From Ferribacterium limneticum (GTDB lineage Bacteria; Pseudomonadota; Gammaproteobacteria; Burkholderiales; Rhodocyclaceae), in the NCBI RefSeq assembly GCF_020510565.1, contig NZ_CP075189.1, positions 558,001-622,000 of the forward strand: 64,000 nucleotides of DNA. The letters are read 5' to 3'. Under the pieces are notes generated by a model that was not told the origin of the DNA, ran no database searches, and was given only the letters and a program-made list of their open reading frames with translations. A program made the position numbers and the translations under genes. Shown one piece after another: positions 16,069 to 38,951 of this stretch (positions are counted from its first letter, which is position 1; each line of letters starts with the position of its first letter).

Positions 16069-16145
16069 GGTGATGTAGCTCAGTTGGTTAGAGCGGTGGA
16101 TTCATAACCCACAGGTCGGCAGTTCAATTCTGCCCATCACCACCA
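16069..16145 (+). tRNA. tRNA-Met (anticodon CAT)
   Basis: 77-nt cloverleaf including an encoded CCA. The acceptor GGTGATG pairs with CATCACC, the D-arm region is GCTCAGTTGGTTAGAGC, the anticodon loop is TTCATAA, and the T-arm is GCAG-TTCAATT-CTGC. The acceptor starts with a normally paired G, so it is the elongator type rather than the initiator. Its 3' end is the integration target of the adjacent island. Confidence 0.95.
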
Positions 16146-16248: not shown

Positions 16249-16309
16249 CGGGTAAAAAACGGGTAAAAACACGGGTAATAGATTCTGTTCGTGATTTTTG
16301 TTACCCGTT
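16249..16309 (+). promoter_or_regulatory. Left integrase arm-type repeats
   Basis: Three direct copies of (A/C)CGGGTAA at 16249, 16260 and 16272 and one inverted copy (TTACCCGT) at 16302. The 16260/16272 pair has the same 12-base period as the pair at the right end of the island. Such iterated motifs flanking att are expected for arm sites of tyrosine integrases; they also overlap the likely integrase promoter, which would allow self-regulation. Confidence 0.55.
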
Positions 16310-16326
16310 TTTTCTCGGAGATCGTT

Positions 16327-17571
16327 GTGGCACAAGTAAAGTCAAGATTGACGGCTGTCGAGGTTCGGCAGGCAAAACCAGCCGAAACGGGTAAAGCGCG
16401 TATTTTTCCCGACGGTGGCGGGCTACGGCTTGTCGTCAAACCCAACGGTAGCAAATACTGGCAGTTCCGCTTTACACTGGACGGCAAGGAATCATCGGTA
16501 CAACTCGGTAGTTATCCCGATGTGGATCTGGCGACAGCGCGAGATCTTGCCAACGAAGAGCGTCGGCGAGTGAAATCCGGTGCCGATCCAGTCTTGGAGC
16601 GAAAGCTCGATAAGCTTGGAAAGGCAGCCGAAGCCGCCATTACCTTCAAGGCCGTTGCAGAGGAACTGCTTTCTATCAAAAAGCGGAACGGCATTTCAGC
16701 TAGCTATTACAACAAAATCGAAGGCGCGCTGAAGGCCAATCTCTATACCTGTCTCGGTGACGTACCGATCGGACGGATTGAGCCGGCGCTACTCAAGAAT
16801 GAACTGAAACCCATCGAAGCTCGCGGTAGCCTCGATATGCTGCGCTTTATCTTGCAGATAGCGGGCGAAGTCTTCGATTTGGCCAAAGCTGATGGACGAT
16901 TCAAAGGCGATAACCCAGCCCAAGCGCTGCGTAAGAACGTCTTCGCCAAACACAAGAAAGGCCAAATGAAGGCCTTGCCTTGGAATGAGATGCCTGGGTT
17001 TCTCCATCGTCTGGATGGGTTCCATGGTGAATTTGCAACTGCCTGTTGCATCCGCCTCATCCTCTGGACGGCAACGCGCCCTGGTGAGGCTAGGGATGCA
17101 CGCTGGTCAGAGTTTGACTTGAATAAGGCATGCTGGACCATTCCCGCAGAACGCATGAAGCTTCGCCAGGAGCATCGCATTCCCTTGCCTCTGCAAGCTG
17201 TCACCATGCTCAAGGAACTCAAGCTGCTAACTGCTAGCAAGGAGTATCTGTTCCCCAGTAAGCGAGGCTCGAAAGCAACGACTATCAGCGACATAGCTAT
17301 CCTCAAGGCTATTCGGAGAACTGTTGGGCATGAGATTGTCGATGCGCATGGATTCAGGGCTGTGTTTCGCACTCATGCCGGAGAGTCTTTGCTTTGGAAT
17401 GAAGCTGTACTTGAAGCTGCACTCGCACATGGGAAGAAGAACGCAGTAGTCGGTGCCTATGATCGTGCAACGCACTATGAAGAGCGCAAGAAGCTGATGC
17501 AGTGGTATGCCGATGAGCAGGACCGCCTTAAGAAGGGCATCGGCGGTATTCCTGCTTCAAAGGTTGCCTGA
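16327..17571 (+). CDS. P4-type tyrosine integrase
   Basis: 414 residues from a GTG at 16327 with GGAG seven bases upstream; an in-frame ATG at 16291 lies inside the repeat region and has no ribosome site. Domains: N-terminal DUF4102 arm-binding domain (residues 1-90), SAM-like core-binding domain (about 95-190), catalytic domain (about 210-390). Catalytic residues: Arg in TATRPGEAR, the HGFRAVFRTHA box, and the likely Tyr in GAYDRATHYEERKKLM. It should excise and integrate the island at tRNA-Met. Length and motifs look intact. Confidence 0.94.
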   Translation: MAQVKSRLTAVEVRQAKPAETGKARIFPDGGGLRLVVKPNGSKYWQFRFTLDGKESSVQLGSYPDVDLATARDLANEERRRVKSGADPVLERKLDKLGKAAEAAITFKAVAEELLSIKKRNGISASYYNKIEGALKANLYTCLGDVPIGRIEPALLKNELKPIEARGSLDMLRFILQIAGEVFDLAKADGRFKGDNPAQALRKNVFAKHKKGQMKALPWNEMPGFLHRLDGFHGEFATACCIRLILWTATRPGEARDARWSEFDLNKACWTIPAERMKLRQEHRIPLPLQAVTMLKELKLLTASKEYLFPSKRGSKATTISDIAILKAIRRTVGHEIVDAHGFRAVFRTHAGESLLWNEAVLEAALAHGKKNAVVGAYDRATHYEERKKLMQWYADEQDRLKKGIGGIPASKVA

Positions 17572-26055: not shown

Positions 26056-27141
26056 TCAGAAGAGATTTACAACGCTGGCATGGCTATTTTGAGTTTCATT
26101 TCCAAGTAAATTATCTAGCAACCGTGGCTGAACGCCCATCTTGCGAGCCACAGCGGAAAGTGGGACGCCAAGTTGTTCATTCATCACCTGCAGGCCATCG
26201 GATACAACCTCTGGCGTTTCGAGCGGCATCATTGAGTCTTCGTCCTCTGTTACCGCCTCTCCATGGCGATTCAGAGTGATGTAGCCCGCTCGAACTTGAT
26301 CATCACTAAAAATCCCCAATTGCCGACCTCGGTAAAGTAGTGCTGCCTTTGAAACGCCCCAGCGCAACTTCAGTTCACTCAGTCCATCCCAGTTCAATCG
26401 TGAACGGCGCAATGCCAGATGACTCTCTGCCAGAAAAGAGGCACGAGGAAGGAGAAAGGCGCTTGCAAAGCGATTGGCCTGGGTTTCTGTCAGTCGGTCA
26501 CCCGTCAGGACGCCGCAATGAAGTGCAAAATGGCCAAGTTCATGAGCAATACCAAAACGCGCACGGCATGCTGATCTCCCCGCACCATTTAGGGCGATTA
26601 CAGGACGACGAGTCGCGAACGAGACTGCGTCCACTTCATTAGCCAGGCCATTTACGCGCATCACTACTGCACCTGCATTTTCAGCGACTCGCGTAACGTT
26701 GCTGATCGGCCCCATGCCTAATCCCCAATTTACTCGGCAGCGTTCTGCTCCTCGTTCAATCGCCTCTTCAGAGGATGGGTCAGCCTCAGCAATGCTGTGC
26801 TCTGGAAGATTCAGATATTCATCTAGGACACACACAAGGCGCTTCAGCATTTCGCCACGCGCACGAGCATATTGGCGTAGTGCAACTTTCGTTGTCAGCT
26901 GCTTTCGGAAGTGACATTGTTCTTCCGTGAGGGGCATCGGGTCCACGTTCCGCAGGAACTCAGGCAAGACTCCTAGTGATTCGACCAAGGCTTGCTCAAA
27001 CGCAGCAGAGACAGGCTCTGCTCCTGTCTCTACGCGACTTAAGTATTGCTTCGACTTGCCCAGCAAATCGCCCAACTCGTTGAGCGAATAACCGTTAAAG
27101 AGACGGGCAAGTCGAATATTTGATCCGAGGATCGGAGTCAT
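26056..27141 (-). CDS. XRE + ImmA/IrrE-type metallopeptidase
   Basis: 361 residues. N-terminal XRE helix-turn-helix (about 6-62, SLNELGDLLGKSKQYLSRVETG), central IrrE/ImmA zincin domain with HELGHFALH near residue 210 and DAVSFATRRPVIALNG before it, and a C-terminal 80-residue region. This is the repressor-cleaving or antitoxin-peptidase layout. The start overlaps the upstream gene at 27138 by 4 nt, so the two are coupled. It resembles the antitoxin half of RosmerTA-type defence pairs; the similarity is in architecture only. Confidence 0.82.
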   Translation of the reverse strand: MTPILGSNIRLARLFNGYSLNELGDLLGKSKQYLSRVETGAEPVSAAFEQALVESLGVLPEFLRNVDPMPLTEEQCHFRKQLTTKVALRQYARARGEMLKRLVCVLDEYLNLPEHSIAEADPSSEEAIERGAERCRVNWGLGMGPISNVTRVAENAGAVVMRVNGLANEVDAVSFATRRPVIALNGAGRSACRARFGIAHELGHFALHCGVLTGDRLTETQANRFASAFLLPRASFLAESHLALRRSRLNWDGLSELKLRWGVSKAALLYRGRQLGIFSDDQVRAGYITLNRHGEAVTEDEDSMMPLETPEVVSDGLQVMNEQLGVPLSAVARKMGVQPRLLDNLLGNETQNSHASVVNLF

Positions 27142-27874: not shown

Positions 27875-28777
27875 CTAGATCTCAGACCAAAATATAGTGG
27901 TGATTTTGGTCTCATTCACCCCTAAATCCTGAAGGAGTGAGATTCTTTCTTCCAAGTCATCTTCTGGGAGAACAGCCAATTGCCATTGAGCGTCGGTAAG
28001 TTTTCCTCCTGCGAGAAGTGCAGCGAAGTACGGTGCGTCGACTGGCATAAGTGAGTGCCCAAGTACTGACACAATTTGAATCTCTGCCTGCTGCTCAAAA
28101 AACGAACGGTAGTCTTGAATCAACCGTGTCGAAGGCTTAAATGTGTTTGCGAAATACTCATCGAGGATATCGTGCGCTTCCATTAGCCGAGTATCTATGT
28201 CTTCAATGTCGTTTCTATCGTTAAGAGATCGTCGTTCCATGGGGTTCCAGGCATGCCCCAAGATGAGATCACTGTCATGGATGTCAGATCTCCCATGTAT
28301 GTGCAGAATGCGATCGTCAGCGACTCCGTAAAGGATCTGGAGAGTAGAGGTGTAGTTGAAAGATAAGAAGTTGGCTGCTGAATTGATCGTTTTCAGGCAC
28401 TGAGGTGCTGTCATCGGCGTTGGGATGGAGAGTTGTCGTATCCACGCGGCAAATTGTTTCCGGAGCTCACTCGAAAGCATTTGGACAGTGCGTTCGACCT
28501 CATACTGGAAATCATTGTGACCCGAGTCGCTCCAATCATCCGCTCCATAGGAGGACATGAAATGCCCCAGATCATCAATGATGCGGTCTACGTCGATTCC
28601 TGCAAGCGAAGACTCTAGATCACTCCAATCCTTCCCGGCTGGTAGGTAGTCTTCAACCGTATGGAGCAAATCTCGGTCGTGTTCTTCTAAATATGATTTG
28701 AATTCCCTGTATCTAGAGGGAATCCCGTGCCACAGATCGAAGCCGTTGCCGATAATGTATAAGTGGCGATTTTTCAC
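27875..28777 (-). CDS. AbiH-family abortive infection protein
   Basis: 300 residues. The N-terminal IIGNGFDLWHG (residues 8-18) and the later FLSFNYTSTLQILYG and ILHIHG motifs are the AbiH signature, also related to SIR2-like NAD-binding folds. AbiH proteins block phage multiplication by host arrest or death; the mechanism is not settled. No signal peptide. The start overlaps the end of the upstream CoiA/HAD gene in an ATGA arrangement, so it is the second gene of a two-gene operon, unlike most AbiH genes, which are solitary. Confidence 0.86.
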   Translation of the reverse strand: MKNRHLYIIGNGFDLWHGIPSRYREFKSYLEEHDRDLLHTVEDYLPAGKDWSDLESSLAGIDVDRIIDDLGHFMSSYGADDWSDSGHNDFQYEVERTVQMLSSELRKQFAAWIRQLSIPTPMTAPQCLKTINSAANFLSFNYTSTLQILYGVADDRILHIHGRSDIHDSDLILGHAWNPMERRSLNDRNDIEDIDTRLMEAHDILDEYFANTFKPSTRLIQDYRSFFEQQAEIQIVSVLGHSLMPVDAPYFAALLAGGKLTDAQWQLAVLPEDDLEERISLLQDLGVNETKITTIFWSEI

Positions 28778-30315
28778 AGTGACCTTCGGTTTTTTCGAAG
28801 ATATTGCCGGAGTTCATCAGCATCCCAGTCGGTTAGTCCGGTACGAATGGAAACGTCGAGTACATGCCGATTGCCAAATCCGCCGCTAGAACCATCTATC
28901 ACCACGCTGCGTATCCCTGGATTGGCTTTTTCCCAGCTTTCAATTTCTTTAGCGCGGTTCCCGTAAGGATCTGAAGGGTCAAGAATCGGTGTCACTCCAA
29001 CATGCCGCCCTCCTAGTGGAGTGAGCAATTGTGCTATTTCATACGCCGAGTGATCGTGACGAATTTCAGAAGTGACGACAATGTCGCAAAGCGTATCTCG
29101 AAGTGCGTCGGCTATGCAGCGTAGCCGATCTATAAAGCCGCGCTCTTTAGGCTGTAGCGCGCTATCTAGATCAAGGAATAGTACAAATCCATTTAGCGGT
29201 AAGTTTGGCGAAGGATGGCCTTCTCGCAAGGCGACAATAGCAGTTTCACGACGTACAGCCTCTTCGGCATCCAACAGCCGCTGCTTGGCCTCTTCCTCAG
29301 CTTCACTCTTTTGTCTCTCCGCTGCCTGCTCTGCTTCCCACTTTATAGTGGCTGCACGTGCCGCAGCTTGGACCTTTCGGAATTCGGCAGCACGTTCCGC
29401 AGCTAACTTGGCTTCTGCTGCTTGAATCTTGGCCGCAAGTTCCTGTTTTTCCGCGAACTGCGCCGCTGTTTCGACCTCTCTCCGCTTACGTTCATCCCGC
29501 CATGCCTGTACCTCCTGCGCACGTCTTGCGGCATCTGCTGATCGTTTTGCTTCAGCATCGCGCCGAGCCTTTCGAATTGGCTCCTTGTCTTGGTAATCGG
29601 CTTCAGCAATTGACTCTGCTCGCGGACTGAAGGCCCATTGTTTCCCGTTGCTCTGGTTCAGCACCAGCTCTCGCAGCTCATCCCATGACGTCGCAGTTCG
29701 TGGCACCAGAATTTCTATGGCCGCGGTCTGCCGTGTTCGGATTCGATTCAGTTTCTTTGCGTCAATTCTGTGGGTTACGGCGACCTCAATGTACAAGCGC
29801 CGATCACCCTTGATCCCGATTAAGTCTGGGCGTAAATCACCTTCCCATTGCTCAACCAATACCTGGTCAAACTCTGCCATTTGCGGAGATTCGGGTACCG
29901 TTGCCAGGCCCGCACCAAAGCGTTCGATCCAGCTGCGATAGTTGCTTACTAAGGTTGTGTATCGATAAGGCGGTGCAACAAACCCTTCTGATTCCCATTT
30001 TAATTCTGACTGACAATCATCGGGGTATCGAATGACGTCGCAAGTGGGAAGTAGCAGGCGCTTCTCCTGTTCGATGATTGTTTTAACTGCGAGATGCAAC
30101 GCAGACTCAAGCGCTCCTGCGCAACTAGTGCCAGCGGCATGACCGAAGTACCAAATTTTCAGTCGGCGATCACCTTGGTAGGCGACAAGAGGGGCTTTGC
30201 AGCAAGGACACGTGCATTTGCAGGCCAGTCCTCTAGGAACATCAAGGATGGAGGCAGCTTGTCCATCTGGGCCAAGAGCAAACGGAATGCGATGATTTAG
30301 GTACGCGGACGACAT
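28774..30315 (-). CDS. CoiA-like nuclease / coiled coil / HAD fusion
   Basis: 513 residues, three parts. (1) CoiA-like N-terminus: Zn motif CKCTCPCC (about 32-40), IWYFGHAAG, and a PD-(D/E)xK-type core RPDLIGIKGDRRLYIEVAVTH (Asp about 163, Glu about 177). (2) A long charged Ala/Glu/Lys coiled coil (about 245-370). (3) A C-terminal HAD domain of the SAK type: GFVLFLDLDSALQP (about 373), VVTSEI, and an end TGLTDWDADELRQYL. Motif IV is DG instead of the usual DD. Likely a DNA/RNA-processing effector or sensor acting with AbiH; not a competence gene here. Confidence 0.7.
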   Translation of the reverse strand: MSSAYLNHRIPFALGPDGQAASILDVPRGLACKCTCPCCKAPLVAYQGDRRLKIWYFGHAAGTSCAGALESALHLAVKTIIEQEKRLLLPTCDVIRYPDDCQSELKWESEGFVAPPYRYTTLVSNYRSWIERFGAGLATVPESPQMAEFDQVLVEQWEGDLRPDLIGIKGDRRLYIEVAVTHRIDAKKLNRIRTRQTAAIEILVPRTATSWDELRELVLNQSNGKQWAFSPRAESIAEADYQDKEPIRKARRDAEAKRSADAARRAQEVQAWRDERKRREVETAAQFAEKQELAAKIQAAEAKLAAERAAEFRKVQAAARAATIKWEAEQAAERQKSEAEEEAKQRLLDAEEAVRRETAIVALREGHPSPNLPLNGFVLFLDLDSALQPKERGFIDRLRCIADALRDTLCDIVVTSEIRHDHSAYEIAQLLTPLGGRHVGVTPILDPSDPYGNRAKEIESWEKANPGIRSVVIDGSSGGFGNRHVLDVSIRTGLTDWDADELRQYLRKNRRSL

Positions 30316-30451: not shown

Positions 30452-33400
30452 TCAGTTTTCCGATACAGCTTCTTCCTCTATCTTCAGTACGCGAACCTTC
30501 CGATCAGCGCGGCCCTCGACTACCATGATTCCGACCTCCCCAACCTCAAGGCCGAGGAGGGCAATTGCCAGCGGTGTATCTTCACCAATCGTTCCAGTGG
30601 CGGTCGAATGCCCCTCAACGATATGAATTGTGTGGCGCTCTTGTGGCTTGTCGATGAAGCAGTAGGTGACAACGTTGCCGACATCAACGAAGGCATCGTC
30701 AGCTTCCCTTTCATCTGGTTCCACGACCTCAACAATCGGTGGTTGGATTACTGGCGCCTCAACCTGGACATCGTCATACTCTTCTTCAAGCTCCGTTTCT
30801 TCGGAGAAGGCTGGAGCTTCAAGGCTGGAAAGGCGACGGCGCTCTTCAAGAAACTCGATCAGGCGCTTGGTTTCCTGTCTTGGGTTGTAGAACCAGTCGG
30901 CTGACCAAATGCGCCAGATACGGCCACGCCAGCCAAGGGACTCTAGGATCTCCTGACGGATGCGGTCACGATCACGAGCAGATGCTGAGCTATGATAAGT
31001 GGCTCCATCGCATTCGATACCAGCAATGAACTCGCCTGGCCTGTCAGGATTGCGAACGGCCATATCAATGAAGAAGTTGGCTACGCCGAGTTGAGGCTTG
31101 ACCTCGTATCCCTGCGACGTTAGTACGTTGGCGACAGAGATTTCAAAGTCGCTATCAGGCTCTCGATCCAGGTAGTCGGTTGCTACCAGCACGCCACGCT
31201 TTGCGAAATCGAGGTAATCGCGCAGTGCTTTTGTGCCGGCAGGCGATTTCTCATCAATCACAATGTCCTCAGGCTGCATTGAGGAGAAGAGGACCAAGCG
31301 ACGACGGGAGCGAGTGAACAGAACGTTTAGGCGACGCCAACCATCCGGCCTGCTTATCGGGCCGAAGTTTTGACGAACCTTGTCTGTGCCTGGTGCCTTT
31401 CCGTAGGTAGTGGAGATGAAGATAACGTCGCGCTCATCACCTTGGACGTTTTCAAGATTCTTCACGAAGAAAGGCAGTCCTTTCTCTTCCCAGTCAGCAA
31501 GGAAACGATCACCTTCGTCGAAGGACTTCAGTTTCTTCTCCAGCAAGTCCTGAATCAGATCTCGTTGCGTCTGATTGAGAGAAACAACACCCAACGATTC
31601 TTTAGGCGATTTTAGGATGTGCTCAACGACAGCATCGACAATCCGGGCGGCTTCCGGGATGTTGCGACGATCCTTGTAGGAGCCTTCTTTCACATAACGC
31701 CAGGACACACCAAGGTTCTTGCCGCGCACATAGGGCGACGGGAAGACAACCAGGCTGCTTTTGTAGAAGTGGAAGTTCGAGAAGGCAATAAGGGACTCAT
31801 GTTGCGAGCGATAGTGCCAGCGCAGCGTGCGAACCGGGCTGAAGAGTTGTTGGCAGATATCGAGAATGCTTTCGGAGCCATCCAGCGCAGCAGGCGTCTC
31901 TTCACTTTCATCGTCGTCAGCACTATCTGCCATTCGGTCGAAGAAGGAGGTCGGCGGCAACTGCTTGGGGTCTCCCACAACGATTAGTTGCTTGCCACGC
32001 GCAACCGCACCCAGAGCGTCTTCAGGGCGTAGCTGGGATGCTTCGTCCATCACGACCAGATCGAAGTCTAGTGAGCCGGGTTCGAGGTACTGAGCAACAG
32101 ACAACGGCCCCATCATGAAGCAAGGTTTCAGTGCTTGGAGTGCCCGACCGGCACGTTTAACCAACTGACGAATTGGGATATGTTTCTTCATCTTTCCAAG
32201 TTCACGCCGCAGCAAATACATCTCGGATTGGTCAGATGCCTTGATGCCGGTGGTGCCTGATGGAACGACTTTGTTCTTGTCTATTTCATGGGCAATACGC
32301 AGACCGTTGATCTTGATGATCTCCTTGTCGAGCGCCATGAAATCAGCCCGCAGCTTGTCGTGGGTTTGCCCTGAGAAGCCCGCGAGTTCGTTGTGTTGGC
32401 GATAAATTTCCTTTCCGATCGAAGCGTAGAAAACACGTTCGAAAGCGGTGGGAAGTGCTTCTGGAGGCAACTGTCCCTGTTCAAGTAACTGAACAAATCC
32501 AGACAGTCCACGATCATCGCAATTGCGTTTGGTGTCGAAGTATCTTGCCCAGGACAACACGTCATCAGCAGCATCAACTGCTGCCTTGATCCGTGCCTCA
32601 AAGTTGGCCGGGCGTTCGTCGTCTCCGGCAGCGGTTTGACGCAGCCATTCTGACCAGTCCAAACGACCAAACTGACTCAAGGTTTCTAGCGTGGTGCGTG
32701 CGGCGTGATACGCCTCTTGGCCAGCAGAAGCACGCTTTCTGAGGAAGGTAAGTGTTTGTGGGCCTTCGTTGATGATGGCGAACTTGATAAAACGGGGCAG
32801 GGCGCTGTTGGCAATTGCGCTCCCCCAGTTCCATGTTGAATCCAGCGCCTCAAGATCAGTGCTTTCAGAGTCCAGAACCAGGCCGAAATAACGTTGGATA
32901 TCCGGATCGGTTAGCAGCAGTTCATCCTTAGAGTCGGCAGCGACCTTTGCTTCGATTGCCTTGATTACGCTCGATGCAGTGTGATCAACTTCGGCGAACG
33001 ACTCAAGCTGTCCAAGCAGAGATTCAACACGCTCCTCCAGATTTCTCGCCAACTGGATATAGCCGTCCCAGCTCGTGGGTTTTACCTTCGAGAGGATTTC
33101 AGAGAAGGCTTCAACGGCATGATCAACAGCAATTTTCGAGTTCAAGAGTCGAATGGCTGTCTTAGGTGAGGTCGACTCATCAACGAAGCGATCCAGCAGC
33201 CCGGCCAGTGTGCCGAGTTGTGTTGAAAGGCTTTGCACGGCTTCAATCCGCTCCTGCCAGGGACGCGAACTCAATGCGGCAAGATCTGCGAACTCTGGTC
33301 CTGCGGCTTGAGCAATGCTATCGCCCCCGTGGATGAGCGTTTCCAGTTCCTGGTTGGCATTGGCCAGATCGCGTTTTGCTTCCAGTAGCTCCAATGTACG

Positions 33401-36400
33401 TTGGGGAGAGACAGATCCTCGTGCCTTGGTCTTGAAGAAGTTGAGAAGCGATTGAACGTGCTCAACTTGTTGCTTGAGACCTTCAAGGTAGCTGTTCCAA
33501 CCCCCTGTTTTCAGGTGGTCACGCGGATTTGCTGATTGCGGGAGCAGGCTGGCAAGAGCCTCTTCAAGGCCATTCAGTGCTTGCGCCGAAGCCTCAATCG
33601 ATTTGGTTCTGGCCGACAATTGACCAATTTTCCGATGATCCAGACCTGTGAGGTCAAACCGGTCAGCAAGTGAGCCGCAGGAGATCAAAGCTTCCTGGCT
33701 CTCGCGATACCATGCAGCCAGACGATCAATCTTCTCGAAGTCAGTATCGACCCCGTTAAATAGCTCGCCCAGCCAGTCCGAGTAATCTTTGTTTCCAAGG
33801 AATGTCTGGCGGTGCTCCTGCCATTCGGCAATTTTCAGACATTCCTTCATCAGCGTATCGGCGCTGTGCTTACTCTTGACCTGAGCAATGCTCTTGTAGA
33901 GCTTCTTGGCTTTGCGCCAGTCACCCTTGAAGATGTTGAAGAAGCTGTCGCCTTCACGGAAAATGCGGGCAGCCCACTTCAGTTCATCGGTGCCCGGCAG
34001 CGCATCAAGGAAGTAGGAGTCACCAAGCTCGCGTCGCCCCGATGCTTCACGGCCATGGTCATCCTTGGCTTTCTTCAGCACCTCAGGATGGCGCGTATGC
34101 TCGTATTGCTTTTTTCGATAGGAGAGCAGTTCTTCTGGGGCACGGCTTGCAACAGTAGAGACGCAAATTAACTCGGAAACAGAGGTGGTCGTGCCATCGA
34201 ATGCTTGCCCAGTTTCTTGGGCGCACTTCGTCAGGGTTTCGTGTGCCTTCTCGATATCGTTGATGAGACCGCGCAAGGCACTCAGGTTTTGCTCGATGTC
34301 ATCAATCGTGCGGTTGGCAAAGGGCGAAGTCACCCATTGTTTGGACTCTGCAATGGTGGCTTCGTCGGCCTCGGCAGTAGGGATCAGGTCAGCAAGGCCA
34401 ATTGGGTTCGCCAAGTCTCTGACGGCTTCAACAGACCCATCAAACGGAATGTGCCACTTGGCCGCCTTTTCGGTCACGACGCCTAGTGCCTGATTCAATA
34501 TTGCTGCTATATCGGCCAGTGCATGCTCACGGGAGCGCAGGTAAGAGAGTGGCGTTTCTGAGATCGGGTAGGCCGAAAGCTTGGTGATAGCCTGGGAGAC
34601 TGCGTTGATCGCATTGGGGCCAACGGCTTCGAATTTTGGTTTGAGGTCTTCAACCTGTTCTGAGAAATCGTCGGTCTTGTCGCGCAGCTTCCTGAGCAGC
34701 AGCTTCAGTTCACTGATTTTCTGATCAAGTGCCTCTGGTTTCAAAATCTGATGAGCGCCAATCTTGGCGAAGGCAGTTTCTTCAGCAAGTTTTAGTTCAG
34801 CCTCACGTGGATTCGCTCCACTCAACAGCGTTTTGCGCTGAATGGCACGGGCGGTACGGATATCATTGATGAGCTTGATGATGGTGGCCAACGCTTGATG
34901 GCTGGGCTTGTCAGCAAGGGTATGGTCAAACAGGACTGGAAGTTGATCTGCAATCAGCTTTGCAGGAGGCTCAGGAAGGTTCTCTGCCGCATCTGCGATA
35001 GCGATGATCTCAACGATAGAGAGTTCGTCCCCATCCTTGCCCAGCGATTGAATGGCCTCTGCCGAAACGGTCAGGTTCTGAGCAAAGCCCAGCGCCTTGG
35101 ATGCGATATCTCCAGCGTCTCGCTCATCGCCTGGCGTTAATTGGTTCGGCCAGAAGCCCCACCACGGGTGATGGCGACCAAAGCCACCCATGCTTCGATA
35201 CTTTTCACCGACATCGTTGAGCACGGCACGACGTACTTCGTAGGCGCCATGGTCCATGTCCCAAGCACCTTTTATTGCCAAGCCATGCATTCGGTCGTCT
35301 AGGTCACCAAGTTCTTGCCGGGGACGCTCGGCTGCCCAGAACACCTCTGCTACAGTCAATCCAAGCTTGTTTGCCACCTGCAAGCCCATGATCTCAGCGT
35401 GCCGTTGCAGCGTTTTCTTCTGCTCGATGAGTACGGCTAGCTTCGCGGCAAGATGATTTTGCGGCGTGAATTTTTCATCAATTCGCGCCTGGATATCCTC
35501 AAGCAGCTTCTTTTTCTGCGTTTTGTGGCTGTGCAGTTCAAGGCAGAAGTGACCGAGATTGGCTCTATCCAAGCGATGGCGAACAACCTCAAGAGCTGCG
35601 AGCTTTTCCGAGACGAAAAGGACTTTCTTCCCGGCCTGAAGGGCTGCGGCAATGATGTTGGTAATGGTCTGGGATTTGCCTGTTCCAGGAGGCCCGTTGA
35701 TCACCATGTTCTTCCCATCAAGAGCATCAATCAGCGCACTGTGCTGTGATGAGTCCGCGTCATAGATGATGGGGAGATCAGCCTTTGCGTGGCCATCGAT
35801 CTCATAGTCTTCTGCCATCAGCGGATCGTTACCGTCACCGGAGCCACCTCCGCCTTCAAACAGATTTTTCAGTAGATCGTTTTTAAGCAGATCAGGCCAT
35901 TTATTCGGATCGAGATCGGCCCAGATAGCCAACTTGCCGAAGGCCAGCATCGCAAGAGATAGCTGACGGCGAACACGCCATCTGGCTTTCTTGCTCACCG
36001 TATCCTGGATAGCCCTGAAATACTCCTCGGGACATTCATCTTCGCCAAGCTCTGGCAGGTTGAGCCTGAAATCCTGCTTCAGTTTCTCGCGCAGCGTGTA
36101 ATTCTCGGCAACGTCTTCACCTGTGTAGGACAGGGAGTAGTTATAGACATGGGTATCAGGATCGATATTGCCTTTGGTCAGGCTGACGGGAACAGACAAA
36201 AGCGGTGCCAGCAGCGGCTTTTCTGACGCATCTGAGTCGTAAAACTCAAGGAAGCCGAACACGAGATAGAGCATGTTCGAGCCGGTTTCTTCGATGACCG
36301 TACGAGCTTCCGTCGAGATCTTGCGAGCCTGCTTTTCCAGATCTGCGGGGTAGAGCAGGGTCTGGATGATGGTTCCCTTGGGGCCGGGGTGTTTGTCCTG

Positions 36401-36769
36401 AATTGGCTCGGCCAGATCGAATGATGTGCTGATGCCCTCAAACTTGGCCTGCTCCTTGGCATCAGGCTTCGCTGTACCAACAGGGATGTACTTAGGGTCC
36501 GGTTCTGGGACTGGCAGCAGCAGTGCTTGCCGACCATCCAGAATCCGATCAAATAGCACGTCCATGTTCTTGACCGCTACGTACTGCATCGAGCGACCCT
36601 TGGGATGCTTGAAGTTGAGCAATCGATTGCGGGTAGAGAGATCCAGCAGCCGCGCACGAAGCTTCTGTAGCGCCATGGCGATGTTTAAGCCACCGCTGAA
36701 AATCTCCTGAGTGTCGCTGGCAACCGGGGTTGCTTCGTACTCAATGGAGTTGGAGTCAGAGTTCTTCAT
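30452..36769 (-). CDS. DUF4011 helicase-nuclease with GreA-like C-terminus
   Basis: 2105 residues; ATG at 36769 with GGGGAGAG upstream. DUF4011 N-terminus (RLLDLSTRNRLLNFKHPKG, about 30-50); Walker A GPPGTGKSQT (about 360); a 1150-residue insertion rich in helices; helicase motif II VVMDEASQLRPEDAL and GDPKQLPPTSFF (about 1575-1600); C-terminal SF1 lobe (to about 1830); a Vsr/DUF559-like REase (Asp in FIDMAV, Glu in IECDGATYH, about 1890-1960); and a final 80 residues resembling the GreA/GreB C-terminal domain. The first four parts match single-gene DUF4011-helicase-Vsr (Hhe-like) anti-phage proteins. Coupled to the WYL regulator by a 4-nt overlap. Confidence 0.85.
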   Translation of the reverse strand: MKNSDSNSIEYEATPVASDTQEIFSGGLNIAMALQKLRARLLDLSTRNRLLNFKHPKGRSMQYVAVKNMDVLFDRILDGRQALLLPVPEPDPKYIPVGTAKPDAKEQAKFEGISTSFDLAEPIQDKHPGPKGTIIQTLLYPADLEKQARKISTEARTVIEETGSNMLYLVFGFLEFYDSDASEKPLLAPLLSVPVSLTKGNIDPDTHVYNYSLSYTGEDVAENYTLREKLKQDFRLNLPELGEDECPEEYFRAIQDTVSKKARWRVRRQLSLAMLAFGKLAIWADLDPNKWPDLLKNDLLKNLFEGGGGSGDGNDPLMAEDYEIDGHAKADLPIIYDADSSQHSALIDALDGKNMVINGPPGTGKSQTITNIIAAALQAGKKVLFVSEKLAALEVVRHRLDRANLGHFCLELHSHKTQKKKLLEDIQARIDEKFTPQNHLAAKLAVLIEQKKTLQRHAEIMGLQVANKLGLTVAEVFWAAERPRQELGDLDDRMHGLAIKGAWDMDHGAYEVRRAVLNDVGEKYRSMGGFGRHHPWWGFWPNQLTPGDERDAGDIASKALGFAQNLTVSAEAIQSLGKDGDELSIVEIIAIADAAENLPEPPAKLIADQLPVLFDHTLADKPSHQALATIIKLINDIRTARAIQRKTLLSGANPREAELKLAEETAFAKIGAHQILKPEALDQKISELKLLLRKLRDKTDDFSEQVEDLKPKFEAVGPNAINAVSQAITKLSAYPISETPLSYLRSREHALADIAAILNQALGVVTEKAAKWHIPFDGSVEAVRDLANPIGLADLIPTAEADEATIAESKQWVTSPFANRTIDDIEQNLSALRGLINDIEKAHETLTKCAQETGQAFDGTTTSVSELICVSTVASRAPEELLSYRKKQYEHTRHPEVLKKAKDDHGREASGRRELGDSYFLDALPGTDELKWAARIFREGDSFFNIFKGDWRKAKKLYKSIAQVKSKHSADTLMKECLKIAEWQEHRQTFLGNKDYSDWLGELFNGVDTDFEKIDRLAAWYRESQEALISCGSLADRFDLTGLDHRKIGQLSARTKSIEASAQALNGLEEALASLLPQSANPRDHLKTGGWNSYLEGLKQQVEHVQSLLNFFKTKARGSVSPQRTLELLEAKRDLANANQELETLIHGGDSIAQAAGPEFADLAALSSRPWQERIEAVQSLSTQLGTLAGLLDRFVDESTSPKTAIRLLNSKIAVDHAVEAFSEILSKVKPTSWDGYIQLARNLEERVESLLGQLESFAEVDHTASSVIKAIEAKVAADSKDELLLTDPDIQRYFGLVLDSESTDLEALDSTWNWGSAIANSALPRFIKFAIINEGPQTLTFLRKRASAGQEAYHAARTTLETLSQFGRLDWSEWLRQTAAGDDERPANFEARIKAAVDAADDVLSWARYFDTKRNCDDRGLSGFVQLLEQGQLPPEALPTAFERVFYASIGKEIYRQHNELAGFSGQTHDKLRADFMALDKEIIKINGLRIAHEIDKNKVVPSGTTGIKASDQSEMYLLRRELGKMKKHIPIRQLVKRAGRALQALKPCFMMGPLSVAQYLEPGSLDFDLVVMDEASQLRPEDALGAVARGKQLIVVGDPKQLPPTSFFDRMADSADDDESEETPAALDGSESILDICQQLFSPVRTLRWHYRSQHESLIAFSNFHFYKSSLVVFPSPYVRGKNLGVSWRYVKEGSYKDRRNIPEAARIVDAVVEHILKSPKESLGVVSLNQTQRDLIQDLLEKKLKSFDEGDRFLADWEEKGLPFFVKNLENVQGDERDVIFISTTYGKAPGTDKVRQNFGPISRPDGWRRLNVLFTRSRRRLVLFSSMQPEDIVIDEKSPAGTKALRDYLDFAKRGVLVATDYLDREPDSDFEISVANVLTSQGYEVKPQLGVANFFIDMAVRNPDRPGEFIAGIECDGATYHSSASARDRDRIRQEILESLGWRGRIWRIWSADWFYNPRQETKRLIEFLEERRRLSSLEAPAFSEETELEEEYDDVQVEAPVIQPPIVEVVEPDEREADDAFVDVGNVVTYCFIDKPQERHTIHIVEGHSTATGTIGEDTPLAIALLGLEVGEVGIMVVEGRADRKVRVLKIEEEAVSEN

Positions 36770-37659
36770 TGTTTTTCTCTCCCCGGAGCAAGAGATGCGC
36801 TCTCTACTCCGTACAGCGTTTCTTGGTTTCTCAGCCAAAGGTGATGTCGGCTGGAGTCGAGGGAATGGTTCGGCGAACAGTCCACGTTCCAACGGTTGAG
36901 CGCATACCCAACCAGTGCTGCTCGCATTTGAAGTCGTAAATGGCCATCGCGCATGCCGTAGTCGGCTTCGATGGCTTCAGGGAATGCAATCCCCGGATGC
37001 GGGGCGATCTCAAGATCAACAAGGCGTGCCCATTGAGCATCCGCCCCCAATTGTTCTGATTCGTCGGATTTCTCATCAAGCGACTTGGCTTTGGTGATCC
37101 GGGTCAGAACGAAATCTGAGAATCGGTTTCGGTTACGGTCGTAGGCACGGACATGCCAGCGTAGACCGTTGTCTGCCAGTGCGACAGGAACGATTACTCG
37201 TTTGCTCGGGCCCGAGGATAGGGAAAGATAGGTCACCTGAACCGGGCGCTTGTTCAGTATTGCTCGGGTCAAGATAGCTAAAACCTGAAAATCAGGGGCT
37301 ATCAATTGACTCGGCCCTTCGCATGGAATCGCTTTGCGAATCCTGAGATCTAGTCCATCCCCAAAACCTTGGAGCAGCCAGGCCAAGATGCGCTCGGGCG
37401 AAAATTGGAACAGCGGTTTGAACTGGGCTAAAGGGACGTAAGCCTTCTGGCTGCTGTCATAGCTCAGATTCTGGGGGGCAAGAGCTCGGTATGAGTTAAG
37501 GTCTCGTGTCGCTGCGGCTGGTGCAATCCCGAATCGAGCTTCCAAGTCTGCACGCTGTAACTCACCGAAGAAATACAGCCGAAGTTCGAGATAGGCCAAT
37601 CGCTCGCGCTGCGCTTGCGAGAACCGGGATTCCGAGCTTCCCTTGTGACTGGGTTCCAT
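36766..37659 (-). CDS. WYL-domain regulator, CapW/BrxR type
   Basis: 297 residues. N-terminal winged helix (about 15-75, GELQRADLEARFGIAPAAATRDLNSY), WYL domain (about 130-215, with RPVQVTYLSLSSG and LRWHVRAYDRNRNRFSDFVLTRI) and a C-terminal WCX-like extension. CapW/BrxR proteins of this layout repress phage-defence operons and release them on infection, probably by ligand binding at the WYL site. Its end overlaps the start of the giant helicase gene by 4 nt, so it is the likely repressor of that gene and of itself. Confidence 0.85.
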   Translation of the reverse strand: MEPSHKGSSESRFSQAQRERLAYLELRLYFFGELQRADLEARFGIAPAAATRDLNSYRALAPQNLSYDSSQKAYVPLAQFKPLFQFSPERILAWLLQGFGDGLDLRIRKAIPCEGPSQLIAPDFQVLAILTRAILNKRPVQVTYLSLSSGPSKRVIVPVALADNGLRWHVRAYDRNRNRFSDFVLTRITKAKSLDEKSDESEQLGADAQWARLVDLEIAPHPGIAFPEAIEADYGMRDGHLRLQMRAALVGYALNRWNVDCSPNHSLDSSRHHLWLRNQETLYGVESASLAPGREKQ

Positions 37660-37694: not shown

Positions 37695-37826
37695 CCAGAA
37701 TGAACAGTGCACAATAATCAAAATGATGATGTTGATCTATGCATGTTCTTAAGCCATATGGCTTGAACTTCAGTCCTAGGGGATGTTTAGTGAAATCGGC
37801 TGATCAAGCAAGTCAATCATTTCTGC

Positions 37827-38951
37827 TTATTCAATAACGGTAACGTTGTCGATTGAATCGATGGAGGCTTCAAGATTTTCCTCAATCACTTCTGCTGATA
37901 CCTCTTTCACCAAGGCAGGATCAATCGACAGCTTCACCAACCCTTCAACATGAATATCGATTTCTGACTCGGCCTCGAAGTAGTGGTCGTTGTGGTCCGA
38001 AACGCTTGGCATTTTTTCCTCATCCATCAGGTAGAAATCGGATTTAAAAATGTAGTACGTGATGGAGACAGTCATATCGAACTTAAACGGAAGCCCAAAT
38101 TCGCCGTTGCCGAAATAATGCAACTCGTCGTAGTCCAGCGCTAGATCGGTTGGATGCCAGTATGAGGTGATGGTCCCTTCGTTGTTGTCGTCTGGGATTG
38201 TTCGGGAATGGACCGTCCTTCCGTAGAGCTTTTGTCCGACATGGTGCTCCATCAAATAAGCAACCTCGCCACTTTCGCTCTCCTGATTCTTGAATGCAAC
38301 GCGAAGTGCAGAAAGGTTATCTACCACATCGAGTTCTAGGATCTCATCCTGTATGTCAGGCAATTCGATGAACTCAGCGAGGCTTTTGTAGGCGCGAACG
38401 CCATCTAAGGCAGCTGATGCGTTGAAAACTTTTCCATCCTCAGCAATAACAACAAGTGGAACGTGATTACGAGCCAGTTGAGAGATGTTTTGGAAAATAA
38501 AGGCGTCAGGGATGTCCTCGCGTTCCTTGGCAACCGTCAATGGAGGCTTGCCCAAAAAATAGGCCTCCATTGCTGCCTGGGCATCTTTTTTGGTGAGTGG
38601 CAGCTTGCTACCTCCTATCGACTCAATCCATTTCGGCAAGGCGGCATTTACTTGAGCTAGAGTAGGCTCCTTGATAGCATCTAATTTGGTTTTGATTGTC
38701 TCAATTTGGCGCATTTGTTTTGGTGCCTGCTTCTTTCGCAAGAGCCCATCGATCCCTTTCGAAACTAGGTCAAACTCCTTTTTATAGACATCAATCTGCT
38801 GTGTCTGGAACTCGCGCTCAACGACATAAGGTAGATAGAGCTTTAACACTCCTTCCTTGCAAAGCCTTTCTAGTGCCTTGAAGGCCAAATCGTCGCGACC
38901 TGGACACTTTCGGTAGATGTTAGTGTCGATCAAAAGGTTATATTTCGGCAT
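37827..38951 (-). CDS. PIN-domain RNase-like protein
   Basis: 374 residues. N-terminal PIN fold: Asp in LLIDTNIYR (residue 9), Glu in VVEREFQTQ (about 45), Asp in REDIPDAFIF and AEDGKVF (about 150-172) make the acidic metal site. The C-terminal 190 residues are beta-rich, acidic and unrecognised. The ATG at 38951 has GAGG six bases upstream. Much longer than VapC toxins (about 130), it resembles the PIN_12/DUF4935-type standalone PIN proteins. No obvious antitoxin adjoins. Likely an RNA-cleaving defence effector; inference only. Confidence 0.72.
   Translation of the reverse strand: MPKYNLLIDTNIYRKCPGRDDLAFKALERLCKEGVLKLYLPYVVEREFQTQQIDVYKKEFDLVSKGIDGLLRKKQAPKQMRQIETIKTKLDAIKEPTLAQVNAALPKWIESIGGSKLPLTKKDAQAAMEAYFLGKPPLTVAKEREDIPDAFIFQNISQLARNHVPLVVIAEDGKVFNASAALDGVRAYKSLAEFIELPDIQDEILELDVVDNLSALRVAFKNQESESGEVAYLMEHHVGQKLYGRTVHSRTIPDDNNEGTITSYWHPTDLALDYDELHYFGNGEFGLPFKFDMTVSITYYIFKSDFYLMDEEKMPSVSDHNDHYFEAESEIDIHVEGLVKLSIDPALVKEVSAEVIEENLEASIDSIDNVTVIE

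Follow-up and report, generated by a model that had tools for sequence, protein, structure and literature searches.

A DUF4011 helicase-nuclease of Ferribacterium limneticum ending in a GreA/GreB-type domain, a candidate for docking on RNA polymerase

Gene organization and domain composition

Analysis of a 64,000-nucleotide stretch of the genome of Ferribacterium limneticum (assembly GCF_020510565.1, contig NZ_CP075189.1, positions 558,001 to 622,000; hereafter the window) revealed on the reverse strand a gene for a giant protein, P0001, in which a DUF4011 domain, a superfamily 1 (SF1) helicase, a nuclease of the restriction endonuclease (REase) fold and a GreA/GreB C-terminal domain (Gre-C) are joined in one chain. 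The gene (30452..36769) is read from 36769 to 30452, comprises 2105 codons and a stop codon, and was assigned from its frame, Pfam, NCBIfam and PADLOC. In front of it, on the same strand, lies the gene of P0002 (36766..37659, read from 37659), encoding a 297-aa WYL regulator of the BrxR/CapW type (PF13280, E 8.9e-13; matches in PDB). The letters ATGA are common to the stop of P0002 and the start of P0001; they and the coordinates agree with the 4-nt overlap of the two genes claimed in a preliminary description of this DNA, made by reading the sequence without database searches.

The DUF4011 domain occupies residues 40–230 (36080..36652; Pfam E 4.2e-38) and is followed by the helicase core at residues 340–1830 (31280..35752; Pfam AAA_11, AAA_12 and AAA_19), split by a long middle region, and by a nuclease of the MTES_1575 family at residues 1875–1974 (30848..31147; Pfam E 5.9e-35). 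An acidic linker, read from the translation (about residues 1975–2024; 30698..30847), leads to Gre-C at about residues 2025–2105 (30455..30697), which carries the motif TPLAIALLG (2065–2073) and is placed by Pfam, by the tail profile described below and by AlphaFold. Pfam locates all four parts from which the preliminary description had composed this 2105-residue protein. The stretches which we take to be the helicase and nuclease motifs are intact, namely Walker A (GPPGTGKS, 359–366), DEAS (within 1572–1580), the later helicase motifs, and the REase stretches with acidic residues, DFE from 1874, FFID from 1899 and IECDG from 1917.

The best NCBIfam score of P0001, 1510.4 bits, was obtained with the Hhe model NF042953, below the equivalog cut-off of 2000 bits; three relatives from other genomes (loci L016, L030 and L004) scored 1398.9, 1368.3 and 1433.1 bits. 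The model of the anti-phage protein ProA (NF058533) gave 1166.8 bits, below its cut-off of 1500, and PADLOC ranked the candidate family PDC-S37 first and Hhe second. Similar to Hhe, P0001 has DUF4011, a split SF1 helicase and a REase encoded in a single large gene; this combination in one chain is what we take to define the Hhe architecture.

In a Pfam scan of the whole protein, the GreA_GreB family matched residues 2027–2098 with 25.7 bits (E 1.1e-5; cut-off 26.9). The tail by itself gave 31.3 bits to this family (PF01272, positions 4–76), above the gathering score of 26.9, and 32 bits, again above the cut-off, in a search of the whole genome, which contains two ordinary gre genes elsewhere. 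To collect relatives of P0001, 84,980 species genomes were scanned by a pattern-based method, which confirmed 141; the best 80 were used for the tails and the tree, and a Gre tail was labelled by reading in 49 of these loci and in the window. After near-copies and very short tails were dropped, 72 of the 81 tails were scanned with Pfam, and GreA_GreB was matched in 46, which is the number of Gre-labelled rows (of 50) present among the 72.

A tail profile was built from 47 tails, that of P0001 among them. In PDB it matched GreA first (1grj, 1.1e-5), then Gfh1 and a GreA/Gfh1 chimera; Rnk was seventh (1.3e-3), with one unrelated entry above it, and GreB matched weakly (0.36). The profile also matches the C-domains of the two gre genes of the genome, and P0001 is its sole match among window frames of at least 50 aa. 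A chance match is ruled out by the Pfam result in 46 of 72 tails, the PDB ranking of the profile and the single match in the window. The preliminary description had proposed a search of the protein's end against Gre profiles; given the score of PF01272 and the first place of GreA in PDB, the presence of a Gre tail is confirmed at the sequence level.

The AlphaFold model of the tail, calculated from an alignment (mean pLDDT 85.8, pTM 0.74), contains five strands and one helix, in agreement with the description of the globular domain of GreA as a barrel with one helix (PMC7527559; this and the other papers are cited from the parts of their text that were available). A coiled coil is absent from the tail; the globular C-terminal Gre domain alone matches, and the NCBIfam model greA gives 17.6 bits (cut-off 139) over model positions 69–151. 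The transcript cleavage factors GreA and GreB have an N-terminal coiled coil with an acidic tip, which P0001 is without. The globular C-terminal domain is common to P0001, GreA, GreB, Gfh1 and Rnk, but here it terminates a 2105-aa enzyme. Across the tails, a PLAQALLG stretch (NExxPLAQALLG) is kept, with P in 48, A in 47, A in 46 and G in 42 of 50 rows. The linker had the highest ratio of nonsynonymous to synonymous substitution rates (dN/dS) of four regions measured in the relatives. Judged by the same ratio, the tail is under purifying selection, looser than the nuclease; in the long form of the protein, 1 and 4 of 28 pairs alone qualified.

Distribution of the tail and its variants

When the helicase-nuclease cores (81 rows) were arranged in a tree by a quick maximum-likelihood method, all 50 Gre-tailed rows fell within one 60-row side of a branch with SH-aLRT support of 99. 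This clade includes representatives labelled Pseudomonadota, Thermodesulfobacteriota, Myxococcota, Bacteroidota, Bdellovibrionota, Nitrospirota, Planctomycetota and others; many are metagenome-assembled genomes (MAGs), whose labels are provisional. The remainder of the clade, ten rows, consists of L016, which has a DksA tail, L062, which has an FGE-like tail, and eight without an in-frame Gre domain. Frame errors as the cause of tail loss were rejected, fitting L035 alone among nine cases examined. In L057, L058 and L060, relatives of L062, the proteins stop short of the Gre domain; behind the FGE-like tail of L062, no repeats of a diversity-generating retroelement and no recognised reverse transcriptase were found on the short contig. 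The protein of L012 continues beyond its Gre tail into an extra region (L012:13203-14351) with sub-cut-off Pfam matches to DZR and Zn_ribbon_Top1.

Outside the clade, 17 of 21 rows have a different C-terminal region, and three of these, L063, L064 and L070, gave no Pfam match above the cut-off when scanned singly. In-frame Gre-C, by which P0001 differs from Hhe, is absent from 13 further relatives in other genomes and from all rows outside the clade. An even draw of the window's phylum (398 genomes) gave 49 matches in 47 genomes, the window's included; of the remaining 48, 40 were fetched from the REase onwards, some of the frames being fragments, and neither reading nor the tail profile showed an in-frame Gre tail in any of them. 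This rules out a tail general to the superfamily, and the 49 Gre-tailed loci elsewhere rule out one confined to the window genome.

In the window's order, a 103-aa frame at L137:1025-1333 encodes a linker and a Gre-C of the tail type (66.2 bits), stops early and overlaps, in another frame, the end of the gene of a DUF4011-type relative whose own tail is of a different kind; it is a putative remnant or split cassette. At L127 the tail profile matched a separate gene on the opposite strand (18.1 bits), which looks like Rnk. In the order of Brachymonas a match was found in 29 of 399 genomes, and 3 of 17 further fetched genomes were Gre-tailed, one of them (L160) being the same record as L038. Within the window's own genus, 35 genomes gave no match, which points to acquisition of the gene by transfer. 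None of the 351 plasmid records matching the nuclease-plus-tail part covers 80% of it, and the 12 matches listed end at the nuclease, as does that of the one matching phage record. Near-copies of the short form were not found on plasmids, where pieces of the WYL gene alone occur in 3 records. The Gre tail is present on two (L176 and L177; 122.5 and 109.8 bits) of three viral-collection contigs matched by P0001.

The DksA-tailed protein of L016 (2183 aa), from a MAG labelled Akkermansia, has the same DUF4011-helicase-nuclease body with a DksA domain at its end. The tail gives 31.6 bits to zf-dskA_traR (Pfam cut-off 24.9) and a phmmer E-value of 1.8e-17 to a DnaK suppressor structure. DksA/TraR is a secondary-channel factor of a domain family unlike Gre; its coiled-coil part is retained in the tail, together with the C-terminal extension of host-type DksA. 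At the protein level, the tail shares 71% identity with the intact DksA that its genome encodes separately, and 72% with the DksA of a further member of the genome's family, of which three members were in the search set. L016 is the sister of P0001 and L004, inside the Gre-tailed set (support 98 in the 81-row tree, 99/96 in a second tree), and replacement of a Gre tail by a DksA tail is therefore the simplest reading. An assembly chimera with the genome's own dksA is unlikely: the intact gene is on a separate contig and encodes a protein that is 29% different, while the fused part shares the low G+C content of the fused gene (0.36 and 0.40, against 0.44 in the flanks and the host dksA region). 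L016 may be a chimera with the DNA of another strain. Among viral contigs, none with a DksA-tailed fragment was confirmed.

A second family of helicase-nucleases with the tail emerged when the phylum to which L005 belongs was searched with the tail profile (297 genomes, 84 of them with a match at 1e-6). Below L005's own tail stood four tails of another giant protein (57.6–66.8 bits); all remaining matches were at most 38.7 bits and mostly frames of gre-gene size. The 1600-aa protein of L189 (L189:2990-7792) contains AAA_11/AAA_12, MTES_1575 and GreA_GreB (56.5 bits) matches and has no DUF4011 match. Gre-tailed loci of this family are L189, L190, L191, L192 and L193, of which L191 is broken into several frames. 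Four plasmid relatives were examined: L193, on a plasmid of Microvirga ossetica, has a weaker Gre tail (32.8 bits), those of Streptomyces and Acinetobacter have none, and that of Deinococcus has another C-terminal region. The Acinetobacter plasmid gene (L196:176-4906) lies directly 3' of brxL.

The cores of the DUF4011 and second families are far apart in the second tree (100/100). In a tree of the tails, 13 tails of the DUF4011 family and four of the five second-family tails stand apart from seven gre genes, with support of 83/89 on the tail side and 98/93 on the gre side; the tail of L193 forms a long branch and groups with the gre genes. An exchanged tail cassette fits both this tree and the L137 remnant, with moderate support.

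Regulator gene and genomic surroundings

In PDB, P0002 matches the WYL protein 7qfz (1.9e-85, residues 12–294), CapW (7.7e-38) and BrxR (3.9e-26), a near-full-length homology to solved BrxR/CapW proteins. Those proteins belong to CBASS and BREX operons, whereas P0002 stands before a single-gene helicase-nuclease. Upstream sequence of 1 kb or more was available for 39 Gre-tailed loci; in 10 of them a P0002 relative lies within 1.3 kb, comprising seven full copies at near-identical loci and three C-terminal remnants; none was found in the other 29 by tblastn with P0002, other kinds of WYL protein not being searched for. A P0002-type WYL gene is also present at L067, a non-Gre relative. This count rules out a constant partner, and the WYL gene is, from its occurrence, an optional regulator. 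The coupling of the regulator to the Gre-tailed enzyme, asserted in the preliminary description, holds at the window locus; as a general rule it does not, since the co-occurrence check proposed there paired just 10 of the 39 loci, seven of them near-copies.

Near-identical pairs of a WYL gene and a gene for a 1814-aa Gre-tailed protein were found at L028, L030, L031, L033, L036, L047 and L056, in different bacterial families, the large gene of L036 being split; their similarity suggests recent mobility. As a possible operator inverted repeat upstream of P0002, the search yielded just a 15-nt pair with 73% complementarity (37804–37818 and 37851–37865), which lies partly within the next gene, and a promoter/operator scan 5' of the WYL gene gave nothing clear.

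The two genes lie in an island at 16069–40000, with a G+C content of about 0.49–0.56 compared to 0.59–0.65 in the left flank; its right edge is not sharp. The island adjoins a tRNA-Met gene and contains genes for a tyrosine integrase (16291–17571), an AlpA-like regulator, a DUF932 protein, a YqaJ recombinase and a Gp3-like directionality factor. No convincing attachment repeat was found, the longest match being 14 bases. On the reverse strand, an AbiH gene with a GTG start (27875–28777) overlaps by 4 nt a gene (28774–30315) whose 513-aa product has a HAD_SAK_2 domain and matches CoiA_N weakly; together they resemble a two-gene operon adjoining the Gre-tailed nuclease. Also on this strand are genes for a PIN_12-domain protein (37827–38951) whose C-terminal half has no assignment, directly upstream of the WYL gene, and, within the island, for a regulator with a helix-turn-helix and an IrrE-like M78 peptidase domain (26056–27141).

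Proposed function and alternatives

The reading preferred here, with a probability of roughly 60% and based on sequence comparison, is that P0001 is an anti-invader helicase-nuclease held on RNA polymerase by its Gre-C tail and encoded in an operon repressed by the WYL protein. P0001 would be a single-chain member of the Hhe-like (DUF4011-SF1-REase) superfamily. Its tail would bind RNA polymerase where the secondary channel opens, on the rim helices of beta-prime, and the tethered helicase motor would meet transcribed DNA at a stalled, backtracked or collided polymerase, for example on phage DNA, which is heavily transcribed and would be rich in such polymerases. The REase domain would then cut DNA near the docked polymerase. 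P0002 would repress the operon until infection or DNA damage lifts the repression.

We infer that, among the roles considered for the tail, docking on RNA polymerase has the best support. The globular C-domain of Gre-type factors binds RNA polymerase, and Rnk does so too, despite its short coiled coil, in competition with Gre and DksA (PMC4598747). Conservation of the PLAQALLG stretch, the counterpart of the NSP stretch of MtbGre in which S127E abolishes polymerase binding (PMC3132773), lends partial support to docking. Gre and DksA are secondary-channel factors that compete for binding (PMC4598747), and the beta-prime rim helices are the site of the globular domains of both (PMC7527559). The DksA tail in the place of Gre favours docking, and so does the same kind of tail on the second family; an exchange of Gre for DksA that would keep binding at the secondary channel is the best available hint to the job of the tail. 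The docking proposed in the preliminary description is thus favoured, but entry into the secondary channel, which it also considered, is unlikely: having no coiled coil, the tail should lie at the rim and miss the active site, neither stimulating transcript cleavage nor blocking the entry of nucleoside triphosphates.

A number of observations weigh against this reading. A single-sequence PDB search with the last 97 residues of P0001 yielded a kinase as its best match (E 0.5) and nothing of the Gre family, so that the Gre identity of the tail rests on profiles. The residue before the tail proline, which takes the place of the Ser in NSP, varies: of 50 rows, 23 have T, P0001 among them, 19 have R and 4 have S. 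Specific binding of GreA seems to require both its N-terminal and C-terminal domains (PMC7527559), which weakens a dock by the C-terminal domain alone. Part of the clade dispenses with the tail: in 7 of 60 rows neither a Gre tail nor a trace of one downstream was found, L035 has a Gre domain downstream and out of frame, and L062, a Chlorobium MAG, has an FGE-sulfatase-like domain (L062:1529-2440) where Gre would be. In the short form, the median dN/dS is 0.15 for the tail (21 of 210 pairs) and 0.024 for the nuclease (45 of 210), the pairs differing between regions. The DksA tail was found once, in a single MAG (in its phylum, 1 genome of 387; in its order, 1 of 62), and its NCBIfam matches (yteA 6e-21, DksA_like 1e-14) reach no DksA cut-off.

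Changes at or near the NSP serine differ in their effect among Gre factors, polymerase binding being lost in MtbGre S127E (PMC3132773), kept in E. coli GreA S124L and lost in S121P (PMC7527559). From the alignment of the tail profile to PDB, S124 of E. coli GreA is counted as equivalent to the serine place of the tails. Since this place is variable across the tails, the dock may differ between forms. The Arg found there in 19 of 50 rows, the absent coiled coil and the 7 of 60 clade rows without a tail are also what would be expected if the tail, an FKBP-like domain derived from Gre, no longer bound polymerase and acted instead as a module for folding or self-assembly, or bound a different partner. 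This is improbable in our assessment, since the domain is under purifying selection and a sister protein has in its place DksA, which uses the same polymerase site as Gre with a C-domain of another family. Far more improbable still is an ordinary Hhe-type protein whose tail is a functionless incidental fusion: the high Hhe and ProA model scores (1510 and 1167 bits) and the tail-less relatives inside and outside the clade would fit it, but 50 of the clade's 60 rows, from several phyla, keep the tail, which is under purifying selection, and a second family bears a tail of the same kind.

The tail could also act as a sensor or guard of the state of RNA polymerase, unlocking the helicase-nuclease on any DNA, as in abortive infection; the state watched might be the occupation of the secondary channel or the loss of host transcription through phage proteins. 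The changeable and faster-evolving terminal module (Gre, DksA, FGE-like and other tails) would suit such a role. FGS is taken here to mean the FGE-sulfatase fold. Lectin-like FGS domains are listed as invader-sensing, and GreA/B-C among immune-system modules, in PMC8195603. The present data do not tell sensing from targeting, and the WYL gene, the sole partner gene looked for, is optional; a sensor is held to be rather unlikely, although it ranks ahead of lost binding and of incidental fusion.

The 2021 eLife paper on TPR-GreA/B-C-PIN proteins is presumably that of Kaur et al. These proteins were predicted to act on polymerase hijacked for transcription of viral DNA, with Gre-C suggested to contact the coiled coil of the polymerase's beta-prime subunit (PMC8195603). 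As in P0001, Gre-C is there part of a predicted immune protein with a nuclease; in that account, however, PIN is the constant nuclease, Gre-C precedes it, and DUF4011 or an SF1 helicase is not mentioned in the available text, while Gre-C of P0001 is terminal. Neither TPR nor PIN is among the Pfam matches listed for P0001 (25 families). GreA and DksA do not occur as whole words in the main texts of PMC12839542, PMC10853773, PMC7159879, PMC11090510, PMC5512222 and PMC3482391, the last available in part. In the literature searched, a terminal Gre-C on DUF4011-type or related helicase-nucleases, or DksA in that position, was not found. The statement of the preliminary description that the fusion was undescribed is consistent with this for DUF4011-Gre proteins in print, while Gre-C as a polymerase module in an immune protein is an idea published in 2021 (PMC8195603).

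Tentatively, and with somewhat less than even confidence, the findings could be extended to transcription-coupled restriction, in which several giant immune helicase-nucleases would be brought to RNA polymerase, or set off there, by an interchangeable terminal cassette taken from secondary-channel factors (Gre-C on two families, host-family DksA in one lineage), an anchor that, once the gene had passed from one phylum to another, could be adapted to the polymerase found there. To our knowledge, it is open how Hhe-type helicase-nucleases tell invading DNA from the chromosome. For one clade of these enzymes, a polymerase-docking tail would be a concrete answer, and the DksA tail of L016 would represent a natural swap experiment pointing at the secondary channel. 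UvrD and Mfd tie repair to transcription; if the docking reading is true, anti-phage nucleases would be tied to transcription as well.

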